64,000 bases of DNA from Amorphoplanes friuliensis DSM 7358 (lineage in GTDB: Bacteria > Actinomycetota > Actinomycetes > Mycobacteriales > Micromonosporaceae). Position numbers and translations under genes: made by a program. The notes beneath the pieces were generated by a model. It saw nothing but the letters and a program-made list of their open reading frames with translations. It ran no database searches and had not been told where the DNA came from. This document shows, piece by piece, positions 45,190 to 64,000 of this stretch; within the stretch, counting starts at the first letter, position 1; each line of letters begins with the position of its first letter. The stretch lies in contig NC_022657.1 in the NCBI RefSeq assembly GCF_000494755.1, forward strand, positions 1,375,501-1,439,500, read 5' to 3'.

Positions 45190-46887
45190 ATGACCGTTGA
45201 TCTCCGGGGTGCCACCGACCGATCCGTGCGGCCCGCCCGCGGGCGCCGCGCACGGGGCCCGGCCGCCGCATTGGGGCTGCTCATCGGGCTGTTCCTGGTG
45301 CTGCTCGGCCCGGCCGCACCGGCCAGCGCGCACGCGGCTCTGGTCGGCAGCGACCCGGCGAGCGACACGATCGTCCCGGACGCCCCCAACAAGATCACGT
45401 TGTCCTTCAGCGAGTCGGTCCAGCTCATCTCCGGCAAGATCCAGGTGCTCGCGCCGGACGGCAGCCGCGCGGACCAGGGCGAGCCCCAGGCCACCGGCAG
45501 CACGGTCGTCATCCCGCTGCGGTCCGGCGGCGGCCGCGGCACCTATCTGGTCAGCTACCGCGTCGTCTCCGCCGACAGCCACCCCGTCGCGGGCAGCCTG
45601 ACCTACTCCGTCGGCGCCGCGTCGACCCCGCCGACCGAGTCCGCGGGCGCCGAGTCGGTCGATCCGGTCGTCCGCGCACTCATCCCGGTCGGCAAATACC
45701 TCGGGTACGCCGGACTTGTGCTCCTCGTCGGCCCGGTGCTGGTGCTGGCCCTGCTGTGGCCGCACCGGCTGTCCCGCACCGGCCCGGCGCGGCTCGTCTG
45801 GACCGGTGTCGGGCTGGTGCTCGGCAGCACGGTGCTCGCGTTGTGGCTGCAGGCCCCGTACACGACGGGGTCGGGTCTTTTCGGTGTCAGCGGGGCCGAC
45901 CTGCAGGATGTGCTCGGCAGCACGTTCGGCGCGGTCATGCTCGTGCGGCTCGGCGTGATCATCGCCGCCGCCTTCCTGCTGCGGCCGCTGCTGCGCGGCG
46001 ACGGTGGCGAGTCGAAAGCCGACCTGGCGCTGCTCGGCGTCCTCGGTGTGGCCGCCCTGGCCACCTGGCCGCTGACCGGGCACCCGACCGCCTCACCGGT
46101 GGCCGGCGTCTCCGTGGTCGTCGACGCCATCCACCTGGCCGCCATGGCGGTGTGGCTGGGCGGCCTCGTCATGCTCGTCGCCTTCCTGCTGCGCCAGGCC
46201 AACGAGCGTGAGCTGGGCGCGATCCTGCCGATCTGGTCCCGCTGGGCGGCAACCGCGGTGGCCGCGCTGATCATCGCCGGTTCCGTCCAGGCGTTGATCG
46301 AGGTCGCGTCGTTCAAGGGCCTGTACGCGAGCACCTACGGCCGCCTCATCCTCGTCAAGATCGGGCTGGCCGCCGTGGTCATCGCGATGGCGGCGGTCTC
46401 CCGCAACCTGGTGCGCAGCCGGACGGCCGAGAACGGCCCCGGGCGCCTGCGCCGCATCGTGATGGCCGAGCTGGCCGTCACCGCGGTCGTGCTGGGTGTG
46501 ACGGCGGCGCTCGTGCAGATCCCGCCGCCCCGGACGGCGTCCGCGGCCGAGAGCGCGAGCACCTCCACGACGATCTCGCAGACGGTCGCCGACGACTCGG
46601 TGTCGTTGCAGGCGGACATCTTCCCGGCCACCGTGGGCAACAACTCGATCCACCTGTACGCGTACACCCTGGACAACAAGCCGTTGCCCGTCGTGGAGTG
46701 GACGGCGACCGCGGCACTGCCCGCGAAGAACATCGAGCCGATCGAGGTGCCGCTGCTGCGGATCACCGACTTCCACGCCGTCGGGGACATCGCCCTGCCG
46801 ATGGCGGGCGAGTGGACCTTCAAGTTCACCGTACGCACGAGCGACATCGACCAGTCCACGTTGACGATGACGGCCAAGATCTCGTAA
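45190..46887 (+). CDS. CopC-CopD fusion copper protein
   Basis: 565 residues from the ATG at 45190. A signal peptide (about 24-47) ends PASA before HAALVGSDPAS, so His48 becomes the N-terminal copper ligand. The CopC domain runs to about 142, with Asp129 and His131 in VSADSHPVAGSL completing the likely Cu(II) site. About 160-440 holds eight or so membrane helices of the CopD family (MAVWLGGLVMLVAFLLRQ). The C-terminus (about 470-565: DDSVSLQADIFPATVGNNSIHLYAYTLD...WTFKFTVRTSDIDQ) is an external YtkA-like domain. Probable role: copper uptake or delivery across the membrane. Confidence 0.92.
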   Translation: MTVDLRGATDRSVRPARGRRARGPAAALGLLIGLFLVLLGPAAPASAHAALVGSDPASDTIVPDAPNKITLSFSESVQLISGKIQVLAPDGSRADQGEPQATGSTVVIPLRSGGGRGTYLVSYRVVSADSHPVAGSLTYSVGAASTPPTESAGAESVDPVVRALIPVGKYLGYAGLVLLVGPVLVLALLWPHRLSRTGPARLVWTGVGLVLGSTVLALWLQAPYTTGSGLFGVSGADLQDVLGSTFGAVMLVRLGVIIAAAFLLRPLLRGDGGESKADLALLGVLGVAALATWPLTGHPTASPVAGVSVVVDAIHLAAMAVWLGGLVMLVAFLLRQANERELGAILPIWSRWAATAVAALIIAGSVQALIEVASFKGLYASTYGRLILVKIGLAAVVIAMAAVSRNLVRSRTAENGPGRLRRIVMAELAVTAVVLGVTAALVQIPPPRTASAAESASTSTTISQTVADDSVSLQADIFPATVGNNSIHLYAYTLDNKPLPVVEWTATAALPAKNIEPIEVPLLRITDFHAVGDIALPMAGEWTFKFTVRTSDIDQSTLTMTAKIS

Positions 46888-47030
46888 TTCCGCGTTCTCC
46901 CGATGGCCCGGCCCGCACCCGCGGACCGGGCTATTGTCATACCTCTCGGGGCCTAAGTAACCGTTTATCCATTTTGGTGTTATTTCGGTCTGTATGGTCT
47001 GCGCAGTACCACCGAGAAGGGGGAGATCAG

Positions 47031-50000
47031 ATGCGGGTGTTCCGCACGATCCTCGGCATGCTGTTGCTGACCGTCGGACTACCGACACTGCTGGCAGGAG
47101 GCGCTTTCTGGGCCGCCATGCAGCACCGGGACCCGGGCGGCGCCTTCACCGGCGACATGCAGCGCGTCGCCACATCGGGCTACGCGGTCGTGGTGGACGA
47201 CTTCGACGGCCTGCTGAAGAACGACGCTCCGTTCGTCCGCTTCGGCGACACCCGGATGCGCCTCACCGCACAGTCCGGCGGCGCCCCGGCGTTCATCGGC
47301 ATCGCCCCGGCATCCGACGTCAGCAGATATCTGACCGACGTCCCGCAGATCGGGGTCTCGTCGATCGACCTCGGCACGGGCGCACTGCCGGTGACCAGCA
47401 AACTCCGTCCGGGCACCATCGCCCCGGAGCAGCTTCCCGGCCGCCAGCGCTTCTGGCTGAAGAAGGGCGCGGGCACCCTCGACTGGAACCCGGCCGAACT
47501 GCGCGACACCCGGTACAGCCTGGTCATCATGAACCCGGCGGCCCAGCCCGGCGTACGCCTGGAGAGCACGGCCGCCGTCCTCCCCGGCTGGCTCAACCAG
47601 GCCACCTGGGCCCTGCTGATCCTCGGCAGCCTGCTGGTCATGGTCGGCATGATCGTCCTCGGCTGGCCGTCCCGCCGCCGCGAAGTCGTCTACATCGTCG
47701 AACCCAGCCAGGTCCCCGACCTGATGCAGGCCATCGGCGCGCCGCTGCCCCTGAGCCGTACCGGCGGCGGCCGCCACGCGGGCACCCACCGTCCGCGGAC
47801 GCTGGCGGACTCTCAGCCGCGGTCCCGCCCACCGGCGCTGACCTGGCCGCCCTCGTCGTCCTCACCGTCGTCGGGCCGCGGCTCGGCCATCCCGATGCCC
47901 GCAGCACCGGTCTCCGGAGCGGCGACCTCGGTCACCGAACCCGCCATGGCAACCGCCTCGGCCGCCTCCGGTGCTTCCGCAGCACCGACCCCGGTGGCTG
48001 CGGGTTCGGTGGCAACGGCTTCCTCCACGGCGGCTTCCTCTACGGCGGCTTCCTCTACGGCGGCGCCTGATTCGGCGGCTTCAGGTTCCCCGGCCCCCGG
48101 TGCCGTGACCTCTGGCTCCGCGGTCTCTGGCTCGGCGACCTCCGGCTCTGCAGCTTCCGGTTCGGTGGCACCCGCGCAGGCCAAGCCGGCTCCGGGTGAG
48201 CCGCTCAACCTCATCTCGACCAGCCCGGCTCCTGGATCGGTGTCCGACCCGTCACCGATCACGTCGCCTGCCGACCCGCTGTTCAGCCGCAGCTCGACCG
48301 CCGCCCCGGACCGCGCAAACCGGCGCCGTAACGCGGCACAGCCGACGGACCTGCCGATCTTCGAAGCCTCTGCGGTGGGCGCCTGGGTGGCGGAAACCGC
48401 CGCAGCCCGCGCCCGCGAAACCGAAGCCCGCGCCGCCGCAGCCCTCAACGCCTCCCGCAAGTCGACGGCTGCCGCCTCGGTGCCGTCCGGCTACGACGTT
48501 GTGGTCGTCGGTCTTACGGAATCGGCAACCGACAGCGCCGCTTCCCCTGCCGCCGGCAAGGCCGCTCAGACTCGCGACCTTTCGGCAGCTGCCGCCGGCA
48601 AGGCCGCTGCAAACCAGGACCTTTCGGCAGCCGCCGCCGGCAAGGCCGCTGCAAGCCAGGACCTTTCGGCAGCCACCGGCCGCGCGGACCAGACCACCGC
48701 CGCCACCAAGCCGGAAGAGCCGAACGCCATCGCCACGGTGGCCACCCGCCTGCAGCCCGCGACTCCGGCCGGCGAGGAAAACACAACATCCTCGACCGAG
48801 TCCGCTTCCGCGGCCGGCAAGGTCGTGCCCTCATCGGTGACGCCGACCGCCCCCAAGGCGGCCGACGAATCCCGGCCGGCCGCACCCAAGCCGCCTGTCC
48901 CCGCTCCGCCCAAGCACCCTGTGCCCACGCCGCCCAAGCCCCCCGTCCCCGCCCCGCCCAAGCCCGCCGGCGACACCGACTCCAGGTCGACTGTCCCCTC
49001 CACGTCTGCGACGGCTGGCGAGGTCCGGTCGGCGACGGATTCGGTTGTGCCCGCCATGAAGGCCGGCGAGGCTCGGCCGGCAGCAGCGGAGCCGGTCGCG
49101 TCTGCCATGAAAGCCGGCGATGCGGCGTCGGCCGCGTCGGATTCGGCGGTGTCTGCCGTTAGGGCCGGCGAAGTCCGCTCGGCGGCGCCGGATTCGGCTG
49201 TGCCCGCCGTGAAGGCTGGTGAGGCCCGGTCAGCCGCGTCGGACTCGGCCGTCTCCGCTAAGTCCGCCGTGGAAGCTGGGTCAGCCGCGTCGGAATCGGC
49301 GGCAGCTGCCGCGAAGGCTGGCGACGCTCGGTCGGCCGTCCCGGGATCGGCCGTCTCGGCCGCTTCTGCCGCGAAAGCCGGCGAAGGCCAGTCGGTCGCA
49401 CCGGGATCGGTCGTCTCGGGCGTCCCCGCCGGGTCCAAGGCAGTTACCCCGCCCAAGGCCGAGGTGGCCGGGCCAACGGGGTCGAATTCGGCAGACCAGG
49501 CTGCAGGGCAGGTTTCCGCACCGAACGTGACCAAGCCGGCCGCCGCTCCGAGCATCTCGTCGGCCGCCGCCAAGGGGACCGATTCCGCGTCGGCTGATGA
49601 CCTGACGTTGCCCGCTTCGAGAGAGGCCGGCGCGGCTGGAGGAAACGCTTCTCGGATCGCCGGTCCTGCGTCGGCGGCAGCCAAGGCCGCCGCGCCTCAG
49701 GTTGCTCGTGAAGGTGTTTCGGCTGCGCCGCGGATCGCCGACGAGGCCGGTGAGGGTGGGAAGGCCGCGCCTCAGGTGGCGGCCGAGAGCTGGCTGATCG
49801 CTTCCGCGGGTGCCGCGGAGGGCGTGCCGATCACGCCGCGCGGCGCAGCTGAGGAAGCGGCTGCTCGGGCCGCCGCAGCCGGTGCCGCTGCTACGAGGGC
49901 GGCTGCCAACGCCGCGGCTGCCCGGGCGTCCGCAGCGGAAGCTGTCGAAGCATCCGAGGCCGCCAAGTCGAAGGCCGCCACGTCCGGTGGGGACGGCACT

Positions 50001-51614
50001 GCCGCGCCTGCGAAGGCTGCCCGGCCTGCCGGTGCAACCCCGCGGAACGCGCTCTTCGGCGGGTCGGCGACCCCGGGCTGGGCGGCGGCCAGCGGGCTGA
50101 CCCGCGCGGACTCCGGCCGGGTCGGCGTGGCCAAGACCCCTGCCGCTGACAAGCCGGAGGCAGCGAGCCCGGCCGCCAAGGGCCGGCCGTCGGCTGTCCC
50201 GGCCGAGAAGCCGGTGCCGAAGCCGAACCCGACCAGCCCGAACCGGCCGGTTCCGACCACCCCGGCCCGGCCCGCGGCCTCGACCAAGCCGCCGGCCGGC
50301 AGTGACAGCCCGGCGGGGGAGTCCACGACGGCGGCCCCGAGCCCGGGGAACCGTCCCGGGTCGTCGGCTCCGGCGCAGTCGACCGGTCCGGCGCGGTCGG
50401 GCGGTCAGAGCAGCCCGATCACCTCGCACCACATCACGCAGTCCGTGCCCGGCGACGGTGGGACCGCGCGGCCGACCGGCCCTTCCTCGGGGTCGAAAAC
50501 ACCGACCTCGGCGGGCACCGACCCCGCCGGGCCGAACCCGGCCCAGGCCGCGACGGCTGGGCAGGGGACAGCATCGGGACCGACGACCGGGGGAAGCTCG
50601 ACACCCGGTTCGGCGGAGAAGCGGGTTCAGACCCCGGCCGCGCAGAACACCGCGCCGACCCCGACGCGGCCCGCTCCGACCGACCCGGTCCCGGTGCCGC
50701 CGAACAGCCCGGCCCAGCCGCGGCCTTCGGTGCCCGGCCCGTCGCGACCCTCGGATCCGGATCGGGAGCCTGTTCCGGCCGCTCACGGTACGGGCGGCGG
50801 CGTCCGCAGCGCGAGCCCGGTCACGGACCCGGCCGCCGACCCGCAGCGCAACAACCCGGTTTGGCCGATCAACTCGGCCGGCGTTCCGAACGCGGCAGCC
50901 CAGGCGGACGCGGGCCAGCGAATCACCGAGCAGCGGATCGCCGGCCTCCGCCCCGCAGTCGAGCAGCCCAGGACCGAGCAGCTCAAGTCCGAGCAAGCCA
51001 GGAACGAGCAGCTCAGGTCCGGCCAGGCCGGTAACGAGCAGCTCAGGTCCGACCAGGCCAGGAACGAGCACCTCAAGTCCCAGCAGGCCAGGAACGAGCA
51101 GCCCAGAACCGGGCAGGCCGGATCCGAGGCGCAGAGGCTCGAGACGCAGAAAGCCGAAGCGCAAAAGGTCGAATCGCCGAAGACCGAACCGCTGAAGGCA
51201 GAGGCGCAAGCCACGACGGTGCAAGCCACGACGGCGCAGGCCACGACGGCGCAGACCGCGGAGGCGCAGACCACGACAGCGCAGCAGGCCGAGGCGCCGA
51301 AGACCGGACAGCAGGCCGCAGCCGGGCTGCCCAAGGCCGAGCCGGACAAGAGCGGCGACGCAACCGCCACCAACCCTGAAGCTCCGGCGAAAGAGGACAA
51401 GAAGCGGAAGGCCGAGAGCTCGCTGTCGCGCCTGGCCGGGTACAAGGCGGAGGTTGCGGAGCTGCTCGGCGGGGATTCCGCGGCACGCCGGCGGCGGAAG
51501 AACACCACCGCGTCCGGGTTGCCCGCGCCGGATCCTGCGTCGCAGGAGCCGCCGATCAAGTTGACCCGGCCGGATCGGAAGGGTGGCCGGCGGCAGCAGC
51601 CGCCGCAGGACTGA
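47031..51614 (+). CDS. Giant membrane-anchored low-complexity repeat protein
   Basis: 1,527 residues from the ATG at 47031, preceded by AGAAGGGGGAG; the open frame upstream of it lies antisense to or within non-coding DNA and copCD. Two membrane helices (about 5-28 and 193-212) flank an external domain (about 30-190: VATSGYAVVVDDFDGLLKND...). After about residue 260 the chain is Ala/Pro/Ser/Thr/Gly-rich and likely disordered, with four repeat blocks: 14-residue AAGKAA..DLSAA units (507-548), about 17-residue AGEARSAASDSAV units (662-800), 10-residue EQLRS.QARN units (1316-1365) and ATTAQ units (about 1394-1424). It ends with a basic segment (AGYKAEVAELLGGDSAARRRRKN...). Function unknown. Confidence 0.85.
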   Translation: MRVFRTILGMLLLTVGLPTLLAGGAFWAAMQHRDPGGAFTGDMQRVATSGYAVVVDDFDGLLKNDAPFVRFGDTRMRLTAQSGGAPAFIGIAPASDVSRYLTDVPQIGVSSIDLGTGALPVTSKLRPGTIAPEQLPGRQRFWLKKGAGTLDWNPAELRDTRYSLVIMNPAAQPGVRLESTAAVLPGWLNQATWALLILGSLLVMVGMIVLGWPSRRREVVYIVEPSQVPDLMQAIGAPLPLSRTGGGRHAGTHRPRTLADSQPRSRPPALTWPPSSSSPSSGRGSAIPMPAAPVSGAATSVTEPAMATASAASGASAAPTPVAAGSVATASSTAASSTAASSTAAPDSAASGSPAPGAVTSGSAVSGSATSGSAASGSVAPAQAKPAPGEPLNLISTSPAPGSVSDPSPITSPADPLFSRSSTAAPDRANRRRNAAQPTDLPIFEASAVGAWVAETAAARARETEARAAAALNASRKSTAAASVPSGYDVVVVGLTESATDSAASPAAGKAAQTRDLSAAAAGKAAANQDLSAAAAGKAAASQDLSAATGRADQTTAATKPEEPNAIATVATRLQPATPAGEENTTSSTESASAAGKVVPSSVTPTAPKAADESRPAAPKPPVPAPPKHPVPTPPKPPVPAPPKPAGDTDSRSTVPSTSATAGEVRSATDSVVPAMKAGEARPAAAEPVASAMKAGDAASAASDSAVSAVRAGEVRSAAPDSAVPAVKAGEARSAASDSAVSAKSAVEAGSAASESAAAAAKAGDARSAVPGSAVSAASAAKAGEGQSVAPGSVVSGVPAGSKAVTPPKAEVAGPTGSNSADQAAGQVSAPNVTKPAAAPSISSAAAKGTDSASADDLTLPASREAGAAGGNASRIAGPASAAAKAAAPQVAREGVSAAPRIADEAGEGGKAAPQVAAESWLIASAGAAEGVPITPRGAAEEAAARAAAAGAAATRAAANAAAARASAAEAVEASEAAKSKAATSGGDGTAAPAKAARPAGATPRNALFGGSATPGWAAASGLTRADSGRVGVAKTPAADKPEAASPAAKGRPSAVPAEKPVPKPNPTSPNRPVPTTPARPAASTKPPAGSDSPAGESTTAAPSPGNRPGSSAPAQSTGPARSGGQSSPITSHHITQSVPGDGGTARPTGPSSGSKTPTSAGTDPAGPNPAQAATAGQGTASGPTTGGSSTPGSAEKRVQTPAAQNTAPTPTRPAPTDPVPVPPNSPAQPRPSVPGPSRPSDPDREPVPAAHGTGGGVRSASPVTDPAADPQRNNPVWPINSAGVPNAAAQADAGQRITEQRIAGLRPAVEQPRTEQLKSEQARNEQLRSGQAGNEQLRSDQARNEHLKSQQARNEQPRTGQAGSEAQRLETQKAEAQKVESPKTEPLKAEAQATTVQATTAQATTAQTAEAQTTTAQQAEAPKTGQQAAAGLPKAEPDKSGDATATNPEAPAKEDKKRKAESSLSRLAGYKAEVAELLGGDSAARRRRKNTTASGLPAPDPASQEPPIKLTRPDRKGGRRQQPPQD
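48549..48674 (+). repeat. Three 42-bp tandem repeats inside the giant gene
   Basis: Units at 48549-48590, 48591-48632 and 48633-48674 each encode AAGKAAxxxDLSAA. The last two are nearly identical in DNA, pointing to recent duplication. Confidence 0.8.
49014..49430 (+). repeat. Degenerate repeats of about 51 bp inside the giant gene
   Basis: About eight copies of a roughly 17-residue unit, AGEVRSAAPDSAVPAVK and variants (AGEARSAASDSAV..., AGDARSAVPGSAVS...). The copies vary in length by a few residues and differ in DNA, so they look older than the 42-bp set. Confidence 0.65.
50976..51125 (+). repeat. Five 30-bp tandem repeats inside the giant gene
   Basis: Units at 50976, 51006, 51036, 51066 and 51096, each 30 bp, encode EQLKSEQARN-like decapeptides. 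They are charged and Gln-rich and could form a coiled coil. Confidence 0.8.
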
Positions 51615-52631: not shown

Positions 52632-52704
52632 GTGGTCGTAGCTCAGCTGGTAGAGCACCGGGTTGTGGTCCCGGGGGTCGCGGGTTCAAGTCCCGTCGGT
52701 CACC
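52632..52704 (+). tRNA. tRNA-His (anticodon GTG), probable integration target
   Basis: 73 nt plus an encoded G at 52631 (the G-1 of tRNA-His) and discriminator C at 52704. Acceptor stem GTGGTCG/CGGTCAC with two G-U pairs, anticodon loop TTGTGGT (GTG at 52665-52667), T-arm GCGGGTTCAAGTCCCGT. CCA is not encoded. A tyrosine-integrase element begins right after it, so its 3' end is the likely attachment core (attL side); the other attachment site lies outside the window. Confidence 0.95.
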
Positions 52705-52723
52705 CTGAAGTAAGCGCAGGTTG

Positions 52724-54603: not shown

Positions 54604-56016
54604 CTACATAGGAGCGGAGTGCGTCAACAGTGCCGCGTTTAGAGACGGTACCGCCGAGGTGGGTGACAAAGTTGCCCTCATTTTCAAAGCGGCCAGCCAG
54701 CGTTGTTGAAGCGCATCACGGACTTCGTTGAGCATGCGGTCGGTGACGTGGCTGTAGACCCCTCGCATGCCGGGCACCTCGTGGCCCATCTGCTGCGACT
54801 GGGCAACGTACGGGATGCCATCCTCGTCCAGCCACGTCTGATAACCGTGCCGTTGACCGTGCGGAGTCAGGCCGGGCAGTACCGGCAGCCATGAGGCCAA
54901 TCGCGAGTCTTCGGTGACCCGGGGCCGGCCCCGTCCTTGCGGCGCCACGTACTCCTGGCCCGCCTCCACCGCCGGCCAGGGCGGCAGAGGCTTGCCGGGC
55001 CATGGGTGTCGATAGTCCACCAGAACCGGCATGCGGTCGCGCTTATCGGAGCGTCGCGGATACCAGCCATCGGCGGCGGGCCGGAATACCCTTTCGCTGA
55101 AATTCGATCGCCGGTAGTGACGGCCTTCAGCAGTGAGGAACGTGTACGCGTCGCCCGTGCACCACGAAATCCCGTCCTTGTCGTCGAGCTGAGGAACGCA
55201 GGAGCATTTCAGCGGAACCTTCGACGACAGGTGATGACTCAGCAGGCCGTTCAGAAAAGGTGGTGTCGCCACCGTGCGCATCGATCCGTCTTTGGGCCGG
55301 CCCCGGTAGAACCGGCCGTTGAGTTCGTACAGTTTCCAGTGCACGTCGATGGCATCGTCGTGGATGAGTTCAGGCGGCAGGGCCAACATCTCACTCCAAC
55401 GGCAGCCCGTGTATTGAATGGTGATGTCCGCGATGAACGTTGCGTCCAAACCGGAGATGATCGCCGCCCTTTCGGCTATCAGCAGAGTTTGCAACGGAGA
55501 CGCCCATACCTTGGACTCCTTCTCGATGCGCTCGATACGGCTGCTGCCCTTCCTGCCCTTTCCCTTGCTCTTGGCGGCCGGGTTCAGGGGTATGTACCGC
55601 GGGACGGCGTCGCCCAGCGTCGTAGAAAGAGCGCCGCGGGCGTTTGATGCAGTCTTCTTGGAGTAGCCGGACTTGACCAGCTTCATTTCCCATTTGGCGA
55701 TTCCCTCATTGGTCAGGGACATCAGGGTGCTGTCGCCAAATTCGGGAAGGACGAACACCTCCAGCAGGTAGCGGTAGCTGTCCAGCGTGCTGGGTTCGAG
55801 GTCGAGTGCGGGAAACCAGATATTGACCCACTCGGTGACTGTCATTCGGCCGCCGCGAGGATCGACGTACCGGCGTGCGCGGATGGCCGCCTCCTGATCG
55901 CGGCCGTACTTCAGAGCCGCTTTCTCCGTCTGGAATCCGGGCTCGGATTCCAGGGTCCCGTCTGGTCCGCGCCAGCGGGCACGCCACAGACCCCCGCGTT
56001 TTTCCGCATACGCCAT
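54604..56016 (-). CDS. int: Tyrosine integrase of the AICE
   Basis: 470 residues from the ATG at 56016 (AAGGAAGGG upstream). An N-terminal arm-binding domain (MAYAEKRGGLWRARWRGPDG), a core-binding helical domain (about 58-150: MTVTEWVNIWFPALDLEPSTLDSYRYLLEVFVLPEFGD) and a catalytic domain with Arg206 (YTGCRWSEM), His386-x2-Arg389 (LTPHGQRHGY), His412 (QMGHEVPGM) and the nucleophile Tyr421 (GVYSHVTDRM). Residues 268-375 carry an insertion with several Cys and Pro residues, longer than in minimal integrases. Its 3' end faces tRNA-His, the probable target. Confidence 0.94.
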   Translation of the reverse strand: MAYAEKRGGLWRARWRGPDGTLESEPGFQTEKAALKYGRDQEAAIRARRYVDPRGGRMTVTEWVNIWFPALDLEPSTLDSYRYLLEVFVLPEFGDSTLMSLTNEGIAKWEMKLVKSGYSKKTASNARGALSTTLGDAVPRYIPLNPAAKSKGKGRKGSSRIERIEKESKVWASPLQTLLIAERAAIISGLDATFIADITIQYTGCRWSEMLALPPELIHDDAIDVHWKLYELNGRFYRGRPKDGSMRTVATPPFLNGLLSHHLSSKVPLKCSCVPQLDDKDGISWCTGDAYTFLTAEGRHYRRSNFSERVFRPAADGWYPRRSDKRDRMPVLVDYRHPWPGKPLPPWPAVEAGQEYVAPQGRGRPRVTEDSRLASWLPVLPGLTPHGQRHGYQTWLDEDGIPYVAQSQQMGHEVPGMRGVYSHVTDRMLNEVRDALQQRWLAALKMRATLSPTSAVPSLNAALLTHSAPM

Positions 56017-56044
56017 TACTTGCCCTTCCTTGATACTTCGGCTT

Positions 56045-56392
56045 TCAAGCTGCGATCCTGTCCTGCTGATGTGTACGCCTGGCTCGCGGTTGCAGCGGGA
56101 CGAGTCCCGGATCGGCGCACTCCACCGCGGGCCGCCTTTTGCTACGAACCGTAGGAACGATCGGCGGCGCCTGGTAGCCGGAACTCCCTGGTACCTGCTC
56201 GAATTCTCGGAAGATCTGCCATAGGTGCTCGGGGGAGAAGCGATAGCTGCCGCCCAGCATGGAAAAGGGGATTCGGCGGGCCGCCGCCTTTTTCTCCAGC
56301 CAGCTTTTCTTGACTCGAAGAATCTCGGCAGCCTCTTCGAGGGTGAAGATTTGGGGGATCGGTCCGTGAGCATCCGGGGACGGCGGGGTCAC
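56045..56392 (-). CDS. xis: Excisionase-like helix-turn-helix protein
   Basis: 115 residues from the GTG at 56392, chosen for the AAGGAGG just upstream. The core IFTLEEAAEILRVKKSWLEKKAAARRIPFSMLGGSYRFSPEHLWQIFREFE (about 17-66) is a MerR/Xis-type winged helix (helix_turn_helix_17). The C-terminal half is basic and Pro/Arg-rich. It lies 28 bases upstream of int on the same strand, the usual xis-int order in AICEs, and should direct excision. Confidence 0.88.
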   Translation of the reverse strand: MTPPSPDAHGPIPQIFTLEEAAEILRVKKSWLEKKAAARRIPFSMLGGSYRFSPEHLWQIFREFEQVPGSSGYQAPPIVPTVRSKRRPAVECADPGLVPLQPRARRTHQQDRIAA

Positions 56393-56898: not shown

Positions 56899-58470
56899 TC
56901 AGCCTTCGTGTTGCTCGACGTGGAACACGGCCCGGTTGCCGCGTTCGTGCTTCCCGGCTCGGATGACGTACTCGCCGCGCCAGCGGCCGTTCTGCCCGGT
57001 GAGCAGCCGGCCGAGTTGCAGCGGGTTGGGTAGCCGCCCGGTGGTCGTGGTGATGAACTGTCCGTCCCATCGGTCGATGTGCATGCCGTTGAGCAGGTCA
57101 GGTTCGGCGTCGGCGCGTAGCTCGGCGGCGGTCATCGGGGTGTTGCCGTGCCGCTCGTGCCAGGCGGCGAGGAAGGCTTGCCAGCGGCTTTCGTCTTCGT
57201 CGATGTCGCGGACGTCGGCGAGGTTGGTTAGGAACCCGGTTATGCCGTGGTGGGTGAGGAACCCGCCGAGGGCTTGCGCCCACGGGGTGAACTGGCGCAT
57301 CGACAGGCTGGTGACCTTGGGCGCGTCGTTGCCGGTCCAGTCGAGGATCAGGATGAGCAGGTGCCACAGCACGGTGAGCTGGTTCGCCGGGACGGTGATC
57401 CACTGATCAAGGTGGGGGATACCGAACCCGGACTGGTCACGTGCCTCAGGCCGGGGCATGTTCGGATCCAGGTGGACCCGCACGGTGCGCGACGCCATGT
57501 CCCCGCCGACCTGGAGGTTGTTGCCGGTCGCCATCCACAGCCGGTCGTTGACCGCCGCCATCGTGTTGTTCGTGCCCAACGACCGGTCGGACCAGACGCC
57601 ACCGGTGACCAGCAGGGCGAGGTTGGCCGAGTCGATGACGGTGCCCTCGGCAAGGTTGTCCCAGATGACCACCCCGACCTGCTGAGCGAACACACTGGTG
57701 ATCGACTTACGGAGTTCCTCCTCCGTGTCGGCCCACGGCAAAACCCGCTGTCCGTAGAGCATCCCCGGCCCGGCGGTCAAGATCGTCTTGCCGGATGCGG
57801 GCATGGTCGCGTCGATCAACGCGAACGGGGTCAGCGACCGGACGAAGCGGCGCAGCACCGGCGTGGCCAGCAGGGCGAGGTAGTTCGCCCGGTCGGCCGG
57901 CCCGGCCCACGGGAAGTCCCGCAGGAACCGGTCCAGCAGGAACGTGCGGGCGGCGGCGACCTGCACCGGGGTCGGCTTGTCCGGCACGGGCGCCAGCGCG
58001 ACCTTCGAGGCCAGGTACAGCCCGGTCGCCGGGTCGTAGCCGGGTTTCTGCAGCAGCGTGCCGTCACGGCGCAGGACCGGGGCGCCGATGATCCCGCGCA
58101 GCGGCGGCACCTCGGGCCACGTCTTCGCGACCAGCGCGGAGGCCAGCGCGTCACGCGGCGGGGTGAACTCTTCCTCCACCAGCTCGGGATCTCCGTTGGC
58201 GTCCTTGCGGGTGCGCATCCGATACACGTAGGCGTGATCGGCAAGCAGCCCGGCCAGCGACGCCGGGTTCAGCGGACTGGAGGCGATCGGCAGCGGCGAG
58301 TCCTCATCGGCGGCGACGCTGGCGAGATCGCCGGACACCTGCTCGGTGTAGACCAGTGCGCCACCGGCGACGTAGGTATCGGGCAGCACCCGGCTCCGCA
58401 GCGCCGTCTTGAGAGCGCGGATGGTCTCGGGTCCGGTACCGACCTTGATCCGGGGCCGGTCGTCGGTCAT
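56899..58470 (-). CDS. Replication helicase-like ATPase of the AICE
   Basis: 523 residues from the ATG at 58470, overlapping the prim-pol stop (ATGA). A P-loop is seen at 221-229 (ATMPASGKT), a Walker B-like strand at about 265-272 (VGVVIWDNLAEG), and a sensor-like LWMATGNN (about 311-318), an AAA+/helicase arrangement common next to prim-pol genes in mobile elements. The C-terminal part may bind DNA. With the prim-pol it probably forms the initiator of the element's replication; the iteron cluster lies just downstream. No exact family name can be given. Confidence 0.78.
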   Translation of the reverse strand: MTDDRPRIKVGTGPETIRALKTALRSRVLPDTYVAGGALVYTEQVSGDLASVAADEDSPLPIASSPLNPASLAGLLADHAYVYRMRTRKDANGDPELVEEEFTPPRDALASALVAKTWPEVPPLRGIIGAPVLRRDGTLLQKPGYDPATGLYLASKVALAPVPDKPTPVQVAAARTFLLDRFLRDFPWAGPADRANYLALLATPVLRRFVRSLTPFALIDATMPASGKTILTAGPGMLYGQRVLPWADTEEELRKSITSVFAQQVGVVIWDNLAEGTVIDSANLALLVTGGVWSDRSLGTNNTMAAVNDRLWMATGNNLQVGGDMASRTVRVHLDPNMPRPEARDQSGFGIPHLDQWITVPANQLTVLWHLLILILDWTGNDAPKVTSLSMRQFTPWAQALGGFLTHHGITGFLTNLADVRDIDEDESRWQAFLAAWHERHGNTPMTAAELRADAEPDLLNGMHIDRWDGQFITTTTGRLPNPLQLGRLLTGQNGRWRGEYVIRAGKHERGNRAVFHVEQHEG

Positions 58471-59411
58471 GCGGCCACACTCCTCGGGTTGCGGGCTCCG
58501 GCGGTCAGGCCGGAGCGGATCGTGCGGGCGGTCTCGCGGGCGGTCAGGCCGAGCGAGCGGGCCGCGGGTTCCAACGCGTCGGTCACCTGCTGGTCGGTGA
58601 GCGCGCCACCGGCGGCGAGCTGGCCGAGTGACTGCGCGGCCATCCACAGCGCGTCGTTGCGCCCGCCCTCGGAGGCTCCGGCGAGCTTGGTCAGGGTGCG
58701 GTCGATCGCGGCCCGGACGTAGCGGCCGGCCCGGTCGGCGCCCAGCACGACCGGCACGGCCGGGCGCGGCGGTTCGGGGTACAGCGGCTCGGCGAGCCAC
58801 CGGGGCAGCAGCTCGGGTGCGGTGTCGTCCAGGACGGTGTAGGTGTGTGCGCCGATGACGGAGCCCGCGGCGACGACCAGGCCGCCGTGAGCGCGGGTGT
58901 CGATCAGCGGGCCGAGGCCGCGCCCGGACTCACCGCGGGTGTTGCGCAGTGGGCTGCCGGTTGCCGGGTGGCGGAAGTACAGGTGCGTGCCGCCGGACGC
59001 GGTGCTCACGGTGTAGGTGTTCGGGAACGGCTGCCCGGCCCGCTGGCAGAGGACGGCGAAGACGTCGCCACCGTCACGGACACCTTCGGTGACCCACTCG
59101 GCGGGCAGAACCGTGCCGGGCTTGGGCATGTCCAGGTCGATCACGATCAGGCGAGACGGGCCGCAGGCGATGCCGATGTTGTACGGGATGCGCTGCCACG
59201 CCCGGGTGATGCGCTGCGGGTCGGTGGTGGCGCGCCCCTCCCATCCGGTGTGTCCGGTCCGGCAGCGCAGGTCCGTGCGGGCGCAGCGGTCCTCGGCGTG
59301 GTCGGGGAATGCGGGCCGTTTGTCGCCGGGGCGCAGCGGGAAGACGTGCCAGCCGCGGGCGGCGGCCGACAACGCCGCCGCCCGCAGGCTGTCAAGGCAT
59401 GAGACGGGCAT
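58467..59411 (-). CDS. Bifunctional DNA primase/polymerase (prim-pol) of the AICE
   Basis: 314 residues. The N-terminal prim-pol domain is clear: ARGWHVFPLRPGDKRPAF, the metal pair Asp92-x-Asp94 in LIVIDLDMPKPG, His143 in STASGGTHLYFRHP, and RGESGRGLGPLIDTRAHGGLVVAAGS. The C-terminal 90 residues (AGRYVRAAIDRTLTKLAGASEGGRNDALWMAAQSLGQLAAGG) are a helical domain common to prim-pol proteins of actinomycete elements. It replaces the RepSA/RepAM initiators of other AICEs. Coupled to the helicase-like gene. Confidence 0.9.
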   Translation of the reverse strand: MPVSCLDSLRAAALSAAARGWHVFPLRPGDKRPAFPDHAEDRCARTDLRCRTGHTGWEGRATTDPQRITRAWQRIPYNIGIACGPSRLIVIDLDMPKPGTVLPAEWVTEGVRDGGDVFAVLCQRAGQPFPNTYTVSTASGGTHLYFRHPATGSPLRNTRGESGRGLGPLIDTRAHGGLVVAAGSVIGAHTYTVLDDTAPELLPRWLAEPLYPEPPRPAVPVVLGADRAGRYVRAAIDRTLTKLAGASEGGRNDALWMAAQSLGQLAAGGALTDQQVTDALEPAARSLGLTARETARTIRSGLTAGARNPRSVAA

Positions 59412-61702: not shown

Positions 61703-62029
61703 TCAGGCAGCCCGGCGGAGCCGGTCCGTGTTGGGGTTGGTCGTGGCGGTGCGGGTGGTGTTGAGGGCGGCGCGGGTGGCCGGGTCCATGAAGGCGCGGT
61801 CGGCGTCGTCCAGGCCGTGGGTGAGGGCGTGGCGGCGGCGGGCCTCCAGGACGGCGGGCAGGTCGGGGTGGCCGATGCGGCGGCGGCCACCGGGCAGGAC
61901 GGTGACGGTCAGCCCTCGCGCTTCGGCTGCGGCGTCAGCGCGGGAGTGGATGCGGTCGGCGATGCGGTCGAACAGGCTCACGACGGTTCCTTTCGGCGCG
62001 GCGGCCGGTCGCTGGCGGGTGGTGGTCAT
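61703..62029 (-). CDS. Small AICE protein, unknown function
   Basis: 108 residues from the ATG at 62029, which overlaps the previous stop (ATGA). A GTG at 61981 with AAAGGAA five bases upstream is a strong alternative start (92 residues, MSLFDRIADRIHSRADAAAEARGLTVTVLPGGRRRIGHPDLPAVLEARRRHALTHGLDDADRAF). It is helical, rich in Arg and His; no family recognised. Confidence 0.65.
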   Translation of the reverse strand: MTTTRQRPAAAPKGTVVSLFDRIADRIHSRADAAAEARGLTVTVLPGGRRRIGHPDLPAVLEARRRHALTHGLDDADRAFMDPATRAALNTTRTATTNPNTDRLRRAA

Positions 62030-62274
62030 CGGGTACCGCTGTTCTTGGCGCTGGCGGCGTCGGCGTGGATGCGGGCGAGGTAGTTGAAGGCGGCCCGGCC
62101 GTGGCGCAGGCGAAGGCCGGCCCCTTTGCAGCGGCGGCAGGTGGTCAACTTGCGGGTGATCAGCCGGGGGTGTGAGCCGGTCTTGCGGCAGCGCCAGCAC
62201 CGGCCGAACGGCAGCACCCAGCACAACAGTGCGTAACCGGCGATGAGGCTGGTAGCGGCGAGCAGGGGTGTCAC
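62026..62274 (-). CDS. Small membrane protein with zinc-ribbon motif
   Basis: 82 residues. One N-terminal membrane helix (MTPLLAATSLIAGYALLCWVLPF) is followed by a four-cysteine unit CWRCRKTGSHPRLITRKLTTCRRCKGAG (two CxxC pairs, about 26-50) and a basic tail. It lies between the translocase and the other small genes in the conjugation/replication array. A membrane-bound partner of TraB is possible; nothing shows it. Confidence 0.65.
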   Translation of the reverse strand: MTPLLAATSLIAGYALLCWVLPFGRCWRCRKTGSHPRLITRKLTTCRRCKGAGLRLRHGRAAFNYLARIHADAASAKNSGTR

Positions 62275-62315
62275 GGAGTGCCTCCAGAGGCGTTCTCGGG
62301 CCTGTTTTCGGCATG

Positions 62316-62427
62316 GCGCTACCCGCTACCTGCGGAAAGTCTCCGCAGGCAGAGATTCTGTTGATCAGGTAGCGGCAGAGGTAGCGCTGCCGCTACCTAC
62401 GTCTCTGCCGCTACCTCAGCCGCTACC
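62316..62427. repeat. CCGCTACC repeat cluster at the 3' end of the translocase gene (candidate clt)
   Basis: Exact CCGCTACC at 62323, 62390, 62408 and 62420, its complement GGTAGCGG at 62368, and one-mismatch copies GCGCTACC at 62316 and GGTAGCGC at 62380. Copies at 62367-62378 and 62387-62398 form a perfect 12-bp inverted repeat. The last copy ends on the first base of the translocase stop codon complement. Position directly downstream of a traB-type gene and 8-bp unit size match the clt/TRS sites bound by TraB in Streptomyces plasmids, although the sequence differs. Confidence 0.75.
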
Positions 62428-64000
62428 TAACTCTGCGTAGAGCCTTCGTCGTCCCGGTCGTCGCCGCCGCCCGGCCCGTCGGGGGCCTGCTCGGCGGTGT
62501 CACGGGCGACGATGACCTTGCGCAGCTCGGCGGACTTGTAGCCCTTGCGGTTGCGGCCAGCCACCTTCACGTCCACCGACTCGACACCCAACGCGCGGGC
62601 CAGCTCACTCAATGCGTCCTGGGTCAGGGCGGGGTACGCCTGCGGCCACCGCTCGGACAGGGCGGGGGCCGCCTTGTCCCAGTGCTGGCCGTTGGAGGCG
62701 GCCACTTCCAGCAGGTCGGCGAGCAGGTCGCGGGCGGCGGGCAGCTGCTCACCGGTCGCGCCGACCGCACGGCCGTGGCGCAAGGCGATGGCGCGGGCCA
62801 CCATGTCGTCCCACACGTCCAACGGGGGGAACTGCGAGCGGACCGACACCGGGGTGGGCAGGCCGGTCATGCAGCCCCAACCGGCGTCCTGCACGGGCCG
62901 GTAGACGGTGCCGGTGATGCCGCGCTTGTACGCGCCGGTACCGAGGATCATGTCGTTTTCCTGCTGCCCGGCGACCGACAGGCACCACCGGTTGGTGACA
63001 CAGCGGACGATGTTGGGCGGCAGGCTGGTCTTGTCCGGGATCTGCGTGGCCAGGATGATTTCCATGTTCAGCGCCCTGGCCCGCTTGATCAGCCGTTCGG
63101 CGTTGGCGGCGGCCTCGGGGATCGCCGAGAACAGCTCGTGAACCTCGTCGAAGAGCAGCACGACCGGGTGCAGGCCGCTGCCGGACTTACGGGACAGTTC
63201 CGGGGTGACCTTGCCGTGCGGGGCCTCACCGCGCTTCTTCGCGGCCAGGATCCGCCTGCCGCGCTTCTCGGCCTCCCCCAGCGCCCACACCAGGATCGCG
63301 GCGCCCTGCTTGAGGGATTCGTCGTCGACACCGACGACGTAGGTCGAGCAGATCGGCTCCAGGTCGAGGAAGTCGCCAGTGCCCTTGAACTCGGCAATCT
63401 TGTACTCCGCGGTCGGATCCAGCATCCCGACCGCCGCGACCGAGCGGGCCGCGTAGGACTTGCCGGAGCCGGGCTGCCCGCCGATCAGCCACGAACGGGC
63501 GAACAGCTCGCACTTGACCGGGCGTTGCCGTTCGTCGGTGCCGAACTCGAACGGCTCGAACACGCTGGTCACCGCGTTCGGTGCGGCCAGAGACCACTTC
63601 GGCTGGCCCATCTTGGAGGCGGGCTGGTAACCGACCCACAGATCGACCTGACCGGCGTGTTCGGGACCTGCGGCCGGCCACACCTGATCGACGGGCAACC
63701 GCAGCGCTGAGGACAACCGGCCGCGCTGCTCGATCACCTTGACCGCTTCCAGACCTTCGGGCAGGTTCACCCGGGCCAGCCAGCCCGGCCCGTCGCGGTG
63801 GATGCCCGGGTGCACGAACTCCATCGAGTCGAGTTCCTTCATCTGCGACAACCCGAGCCGGGTGAAGGACTTGCGGACCATCTCCGCGGTGAGCTTGGTG
63901 AACTTCGGCCCGTTGGACACCCGGTCGACGAACGGGGTGTCACCGGTCCAGCCGACCCGGGCCAACCCGATCAGCAGGGCGGCGATGACCGCCCACCAGC
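62427..64000 (-). CDS. TraB/FtsK-SpoIIIE-like DNA translocase, partial at the right edge
   Basis: 524 codons are in the window; the N-terminus is beyond base 64000. The visible start (WWAVIAALLIGLARVGW) is the end of a membrane helix. Walker A is WLIGGQPGSGKSYAARS, Walker B VVLLFDEVHELFS, followed by IILATQIPDKTSLPPNIVRCVTNRWCLSV, the FtsK/TraB pattern. The last 130 residues include ALTQDALSELARALGVESVDVKVAGRNRKGYKSAELRKVIV, which looks like the winged-helix gamma domain that reads short DNA repeats. It should move the element as double-stranded DNA between mycelia. The repeat cluster at its 3' end is the likely target. Confidence 0.9.
   Translation of the reverse strand, partial: WWAVIAALLIGLARVGWTGDTPFVDRVSNGPKFTKLTAEMVRKSFTRLGLSQMKELDSMEFVHPGIHRDGPGWLARVNLPEGLEAVKVIEQRGRLSSALRLPVDQVWPAAGPEHAGQVDLWVGYQPASKMGQPKWSLAAPNAVTSVFEPFEFGTDERQRPVKCELFARSWLIGGQPGSGKSYAARSVAAVGMLDPTAEYKIAEFKGTGDFLDLEPICSTYVVGVDDESLKQGAAILVWALGEAEKRGRRILAAKKRGEAPHGKVTPELSRKSGSGLHPVVLLFDEVHELFSAIPEAAANAERLIKRARALNMEIILATQIPDKTSLPPNIVRCVTNRWCLSVAGQQENDMILGTGAYKRGITGTVYRPVQDAGWGCMTGLPTPVSVRSQFPPLDVWDDMVARAIALRHGRAVGATGEQLPAARDLLADLLEVAASNGQHWDKAAPALSERWPQAYPALTQDALSELARALGVESVDVKVAGRNRKGYKSAELRKVIVARDTAEQAPDGPGGGDDRDDEGSTQS

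Follow-up and report, generated by a model that had tools for sequence, protein, structure and literature searches.

A clt-type repeat array with a new repeat at the stop codon of a TraB-like translocase gene, probably read mainly through the beta-wing of the protein

The 64,000-nucleotide stretch of the Amorphoplanes friuliensis DSM 7358 genome analysed here (the window) carries GGTAGCG(G/C) eight times, with six exact copies and two that match at 7/8 positions, within the 177 bp of positions 62251-62427, an interval that runs from the stop codon of a translocase gene to the first codons of the next gene. We propose that this array serves the TraB-like translocase of the same element as a clt-type loading site, with specificity lying largely in the beta-wing of the C-terminal domain, and we put the probability of this reading at roughly 0.85. 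Clt-type loci beside tra genes are known; what appears to be new here is the repeat sequence.

The array and the element that carries it

Read in the direction of the translocase gene (minus strand), the unit is GGTAGCGG. From the stop codon onward, three direct copies on this strand (GGTAGCGG at 62420-62427, 62408-62415 and 62390-62397) are followed by two inverted copies on the plus strand (GGTAGCGC, matching at 7/8, at 62380-62387, and GGTAGCGG at 62368-62375), then by a second block, a tandem pair on the minus strand (GGTAGCGG at 62323-62330 and GGTAGCGC, again 7/8, at 62316-62323), and last by an exact copy on the plus strand within codons 6-8 of the next gene (GGTAGCGG at 62251-62258). 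The copies at 62390 and 62368 pair in a perfect 12-bp inverted repeat (62367-62378 / 62387-62398), and the copy nearest the translocase overlaps the TAG stop codon (62427-62429, minus strand) by one base, the G. The sequence-only reading had described five exact and two near-exact 8-mers in 62316-62427, a perfect 12-bp inverted repeat, and repeats ending at the stop of the TraB-like gene. Our recount agrees with all of these, finding CCGCTACC exactly at 62323 (+), 62368 (-), 62390 (+), 62408 (+) and 62420 (+), and the 7/8 copies at 62316-62323 and, on the other strand, at 62380-62387; the cluster as then delimited is real but incomplete, since the exact copy in the next gene had been overlooked.

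Exact CCGCTACC occurs eight times in the window against 2.18 expected, a count that none of 100 shuffles reached, and six of the eight occurrences lie in the array. The 9.38-Mb genome contains four same-strand pairs of exact copies no more than 30 bp apart, two of them in this array; because the backwards pattern also gives four, it is the run of copies, not the pairs, that is unusual. At the 3' ends of the six other FtsK-family genes in the genome, no 7-mer is present in more than two copies, versus seven at the array.

Clustered 7-9-bp repeats beside tra, the mark of a clt, are present at 62251-62427, the span of the proposed clt-type locus. The array is like the clt of the Streptomyces plasmids pSVH1, pJV1 and pWTY27 in having several such repeats at or across the tra stop codon, beside an FtsK-like translocase, and this match in position, repeat size and relation to tra favours the clt-type site that had been suggested from the letters of the sequence. 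It differs from the three plasmid loci in the 8-mer itself, in the extra copy within the next gene, in its location in a chromosomal AICE of an Actinoplanes-type host, and in being known from sequence alone. In those parts of the TraB/clt literature drawn on here (PMC3583192, PMC3218068, PMC9513070, PMC12857230, PMC4170104 and PMC6137059), four clt loci are named, with repeats that look unrelated to one another, and the pWTY27 clt is given as 16 bp of traA plus 159 bp; in a literature search on TraB and clt, no title or opening of an abstract pointed to a TraB-clt residue code.

The surrounding element is about 26.6 kb long and the window holds its left part only. Direct repeats at a tRNA gene enclose genes for an integrase and for replication as well as tra, and this content identifies it from sequence as an AICE. 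The left attachment repeat is the 45-bp 3' end of tRNA-His (52661-52705, plus strand), with a second copy outside the window at extended position 79247-79291; the tyrosine integrase (longest open frame, 54604-56373) and the Prim-Pol replication protein (58467-59411) are both encoded on the minus strand. The product of the gene after the translocase (62026-62274, minus strand) is 82 aa long and hydrophobic at its N-terminus, has two CxxC motifs and a weak DnaJ zinc-finger-like match below the Pfam cut-off, and is possibly a Spd-type partner. The AICE also encodes an excisionase-like HTH protein, a C5-methylase and, about 8-10 kb from the array, GntR and Xre regulators. Beside the element, 46698-51614 forms a 1638-codon open frame whose translation is repetitive and very rich in Ala and Pro.

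Arrays at related tra genes and the switching of the repeat core

About 230 related loci entered the comparison overall. Homologs of the translocase were found at E up to 1e-20 in 32 of 67 genomes of the same genus and at E up to 1e-30 in 158 of the 354 family genomes; the loci are a sample, since they were taken as the best 30 of each of three homolog lists and the best 80 of 177, together with chosen stretches. After two loci with cut 3' ends (L162 and L169) had been dropped, 129 non-identical loci with usable 3' ends were available, and in 113 of these sampled loci a 7-mer was repeated at least four times in 190 bp at the tra stop, versus 3.8% of 14,754 control windows. Sixty-five of the 129 arrays exceeded every control window of their own locus, and a few control windows reached 10 copies. 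Two loci (L077 and L079) had a weak array only, and no array could be called in L103, L172 (= L257), L277 and L294. In Dactylosporangium roseum a related tra locus is present twice, about 8.1 kb apart, with equal score and identity (L157 and L158).

A blind count of 7-mers right after the tra stop returned GACCCGGA five times in pSVH1, which we take to be the TRS of that plasmid, and CCGCACA nine times in pJV1. Elsewhere the count gave CCCGGAC five times in pSG5 and short TATCGATA dyads in the NBC_00562 plasmid, and no array at the tra stop was found in pIJ101 and pPaSha2. CCGCACA is the clt repeat of pJV1 as quoted in PMC3583192, and the clt of pIJ101 is reported to lie near korB.

The cores differ by element (GGTAGC, GGTAAC, GGTCGC, GCTAGC, GATAGC, CCTAGC, TGGCGC and others), and within an element most copies change core together. 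With the array type called only from positions -15 to +75 around the stop, 109 loci could be tested for recurrence: the second block again held the own type in 71 loci (permuted mean 31.8, maximum 49), and codons 2-13 of the next gene did so in 52, the present locus included (permuted mean 19.7, maximum 33), while each of three coding control stretches gave 0/109. The signal in the next gene comes mainly from the GGT types (GGTAGC 8/12, GGTAAC 5/5, GGTCGC 17/18) and GATAGC (5/6), because the CTAG types often carry a variant core there (own type in GCTAGC 17/52, CCTAGC 0/5, TCTAGC 0/10). Between +178 and +400 there was no own-type excess (8 of 122 loci, permuted mean 7.99), since the array ends before +178. 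Layouts vary by type, with three direct and two inverted copies here and 2-bp-spaced dyads in the CTAG types, and the unit is kept.

The C-terminal domain of the translocase and its co-variation with the repeat

The 3' part of the translocase gene occupies 62427-64000 of the window (minus strand); the length of 730 aa assumes an ATG that we chose at extended position 64619, outside the window. A profile of 14 homologs matched FtsK structures (E 4e-14) and aligned with pSVH1 TraB over residues 215 to 706 (hhalign E 2.7e-43); Pfam FtsK_SpoIIIE was detected in 11 of the 14, and the protein on its own gave only AAA, below the cut-off. For residues 616-730 (62430-62774, minus strand), AlphaFold2 with 49 sequences predicted a winged helix (pLDDT 84), with helices at 632-639, 647-657 and 667-676, strands at 682-686 and 689-694, and a final helix at 696-711. 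The best fold matches of this domain were weak, though they agreed in being winged-helix proteins (Foldseek E 0.035, Z 5.9), and TcpK chains were among the matches (E 0.07, TM about 0.35); FtsK gamma was not among the matches listed, which carries no weight against the assignment. Sequence profiles and model thus indicate both features of a TraB-type double-stranded DNA translocase, the motor of the FtsK/SpoIIIE family and the C-terminal winged helix. The beta-wing comprises residues 682-694 (VDVKVAGRNRKGY; 62538-62576, minus strand) and contains D683, R691 and K692, which co-vary with the repeat, and Y694, which does so in the first 184 loci only. Given a two-residue turn at 687-688, as the limits of the modelled strands suggest, residues 683 and 692 would lie opposite each other.

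For the co-variation analysis, a FastTree phylogeny of the motor domain was built from 122 loci, that is, the 129 minus five dropped before alignment (L103, L161, L167, L172 and L175) and two without a motif call (L077 and L079); the stop of L161 was misplaced because its tra frame is broken, and L175 was restored by hand for the dyad tables. The motif switches 25 times on this tree, and the residue changes that coincide with switches are concentrated in the C-terminal domain (Mann-Whitney p 2e-9), with T666 and Q667 of helix 3 among the co-changing columns. Co-change was scored by parsimony, with a single tree for each data set; loci of the same clade are not independent of one another, and independent switches are few, 3 to 11 per base. 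When 184 loci and 470 columns (residues 251-730) were scanned in this way, the top columns were D683 for base 5 (3/3 changes coinciding), K692 for base 6 (4/5), R691 for base 2 (6/11) and H646 for base 4 (3/3). Y694 is not among the seven columns listed in that scan; by state it is perfect for base 4 in the same first 184 loci, A or M at 694 corresponding to C4 in 19/19 and other residues to A4 in 165/165; L248, which has dyads of another kind, was entered by state only. When each of two C4 clades was left out in turn, 2 of 637 TraB columns (694 and 637) predicted base 4 in both.

CTAGnnCTAG dyads occur in 130 of the loci, and in these C6 accompanies R/K692 (115/115), G6 accompanies G/Q692 (9/9) and A6 accompanies T/I692 (4/4), A692 being mixed in two. 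Among long-wing loci, GRRIDGK-type wings occur with CG between the CTAG half-sites in 115 of 119 dyads, and GTD-type wings with AC/GT in 100 of 103.

Residue rules fixed beforehand were applied to two sets of new loci. The first, of 60 loci, was not a challenging test, because none with A/M694, K691 or a short wing was seen in it, and the base-6 rule emerged from this set rather than being predicted there. The second comprised 45 loci of other families (L250 and L254 excluded as duplicates, L256 and L296 as cut), 39 of them scorable; the six others were L257 (the same as L172), L269, whose array, GCTTGCGCAAGC, was missing from the word list used, L276 (wrong frame), L277, L293 and L294. Base 6 was predicted correctly from residue 692 in 38/38 (34 C6 and 4 A6, the four A6 loci all belonging to family f19), L295 being without a prediction. 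Base 5 followed from residue 683 in 10/10, five with A683 and GTAAC and five with D/N683 and GTAGC, all ten loci belonging to family f20 and to a short-wing subset that was delimited only once the arrays were known, in part from their cores; this filter excluded L288 (D683 with core GTCGC, giving G5). The base-4 rule (A/M694 giving C) was right in only 28/39, the misses being L288 and ten loci with A694 but A4, and it is local to the first set, since 11 of the 39 new loci missed. The base-2 rule fails in L253, L263, L271, L289 and L290 of the second set and in L019; base 2 depends on context.

These results bear on two expectations of the sequence-only reading. An alignment of tra 3' flanks from related elements did reveal the co-variation between repeat and C-terminal domain that it had called for, although not every residue rule generalised. 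Its pairing of a new specificity with the C-terminal winged helix holds in that the co-variation lies in this domain, but the co-varying residues, as placed by alignment and model, sit mostly in the beta-wing rather than in helix 3. Recognition by pSVH1 TraB has been assigned to helix 3 in what we have of PMC3583192; this view and a wing-centred one would not be exclusive, judging from the co-change of T666 and Q667.

Other possible readers and the meaning of the array

The product of the next gene is an unlikely reader of the repeats, although it would have a precedent in SpdA2 of pIJ101, reported as a DNA-binding protein with a zinc-finger hit that reads palindromes within its own coding region (PMC4170104). 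One site does lie inside the gene, and a relative of its product was found in 37 of 40 loci examined for neighbouring genes, loci that were chosen for their TraB, so that TraB is present in 40/40 by selection. The repeats, however, start at the tra stop, outside the next gene, and when the two C4 clades were held out in turn, none of 67 columns of its product predicted base 4 in both, versus the two TraB columns given above; this comparison is only moderately strong, because base 4 alone was scanned and the base-4 rule failed in a distant lineage.

Iterons, or an origin bound by the element's replication proteins, would also account for a repeat cluster, as origins typically hold such clusters and RepA of pWTY27 is reported to bind an iteron with 7- and 8-bp repeats, but we consider this very unlikely. 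Rep-helicase relatives were present in only 8 of the 40 loci, one at 33% identity (L090) and seven at 73-79%, and these seven accompany differing arrays: GCTAGC (L063 and L074), GGTAGC (L078 and L098), GGTCGC (L092) and weak ones (L077 and L079). Prim-Pol was found in 29/40, a 20-kb stretch being searched at each locus. With three array types plus weak arrays beside these seven Rep proteins, the repeat does not follow the Rep protein, and the replication iteron was rejected. At L098, the integrase (73%), Rep (73%) and methylase (70%) are similar to those of the present element and TraB is only 38% identical, yet the GGTAGC core is the same, a pattern that may reflect either module exchange or convergence.

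More improbable still is a role of the repeats as operators for a repressor of the transfer genes, KorA-like or other; a KorA-like repressor encoded to the right of the window had been named as the alternative that would overturn the clt assignment. GntR and Xre regulators are indeed encoded in the same element, but when the whole of the 39 genomes behind the 40 array loci was searched (E up to 1e-8), relatives within 25 kb of tra were found in two loci for GntR (L083 and, weakly, L084) and in one for Xre (L083), and with a looser threshold the 20-kb stretches yielded seven GntR relatives and one Xre relative in the 40 loci. Seven of the sites fall between two genes of the same direction and one within a gene, and it is the wing residues of TraB that track the site. 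A repressor unrelated to the element's GntR and Xre proteins is a conceivable but improbable reader. At L083, which is of the GGTAAC type, two adjacent genes about 9 kb from the tra stop encode close relatives of both regulators, unlike at the other 39 loci. Least probable of all is an RNA structure (attenuator or terminator) ending the tra transcript, for although the strand forms a better fold than its 200 shuffled versions (z -5.7 as DNA), no T run follows, array layout varies by type while the unit stays, and isolated copies, that in the next gene included, tend to switch with the rest.

On the sequence comparisons, then, replication, repressor and neighbour-gene readers fit worse than TraB, and the locus is probably a clt-type array with a new repeat, read by TraB mainly via the beta-wing. 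In the mechanism that we propose, the motor is a hexamer whose C-terminal winged helices would bind the GGTAGCGG copies on double-stranded DNA; this would load it onto the circular element after excision and mark the element for conjugal transfer. Homology with pSVH1 and pWTY27 is our ground for proposing binding, hexamer loading and transfer. Specificity would lie largely in the wing (682-694), with D683 and K692, as cross-strand neighbours, corresponding to the adjacent bases 5 and 6, and R691, in combination with the length of the wing, to base 2. Since the array lies next to the gene of its presumed reader, the two would change together, and AICE lineages would gain addresses of their own.

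Two other winged-helix systems invite comparison. FtsK gamma is the C-terminal winged helix of a hexameric DNA motor and reads the 8-bp KOPS, which are spread all over the chromosome. The TraB-like protein is similar in having a C-terminal winged helix on a motor and 8-bp sites, but its sites are clustered beside its own gene and a helix follows the wing in the model. In TcpK of pCW3, the beta-wing is reported to read 9-nt oriT repeats in the major groove (PMC6137059). The TcpK boxes resemble the present array as short tandem repeats at a transfer locus, and a winged helix, with reading by the wing, is proposed here as well; TcpK, however, is a separate relaxosome protein, whereas the domain here is fused to a double-strand DNA motor, and homology is not claimed. 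That the TraB beta-wing constitutes a recognition code, in which residues 683 and 692 specify adjacent bases 5 and 6 and which is wing-centred as in TcpK, not helix-3-centred as for pSVH1, has in our judgement about an even chance of being correct. If it is, the address of an element transferred as double-stranded DNA would be predictable, and could be re-written, from a few residues.

Within one homologous family, more than 100 arrays now provide a case in which repeats change along with their probable reader, and TraB specificity can therefore be tested by single-residue swaps. Candidate clt sites can be found in AICEs, and the switching of arrays offers a possible way for coexisting elements to keep their transfer systems separate.
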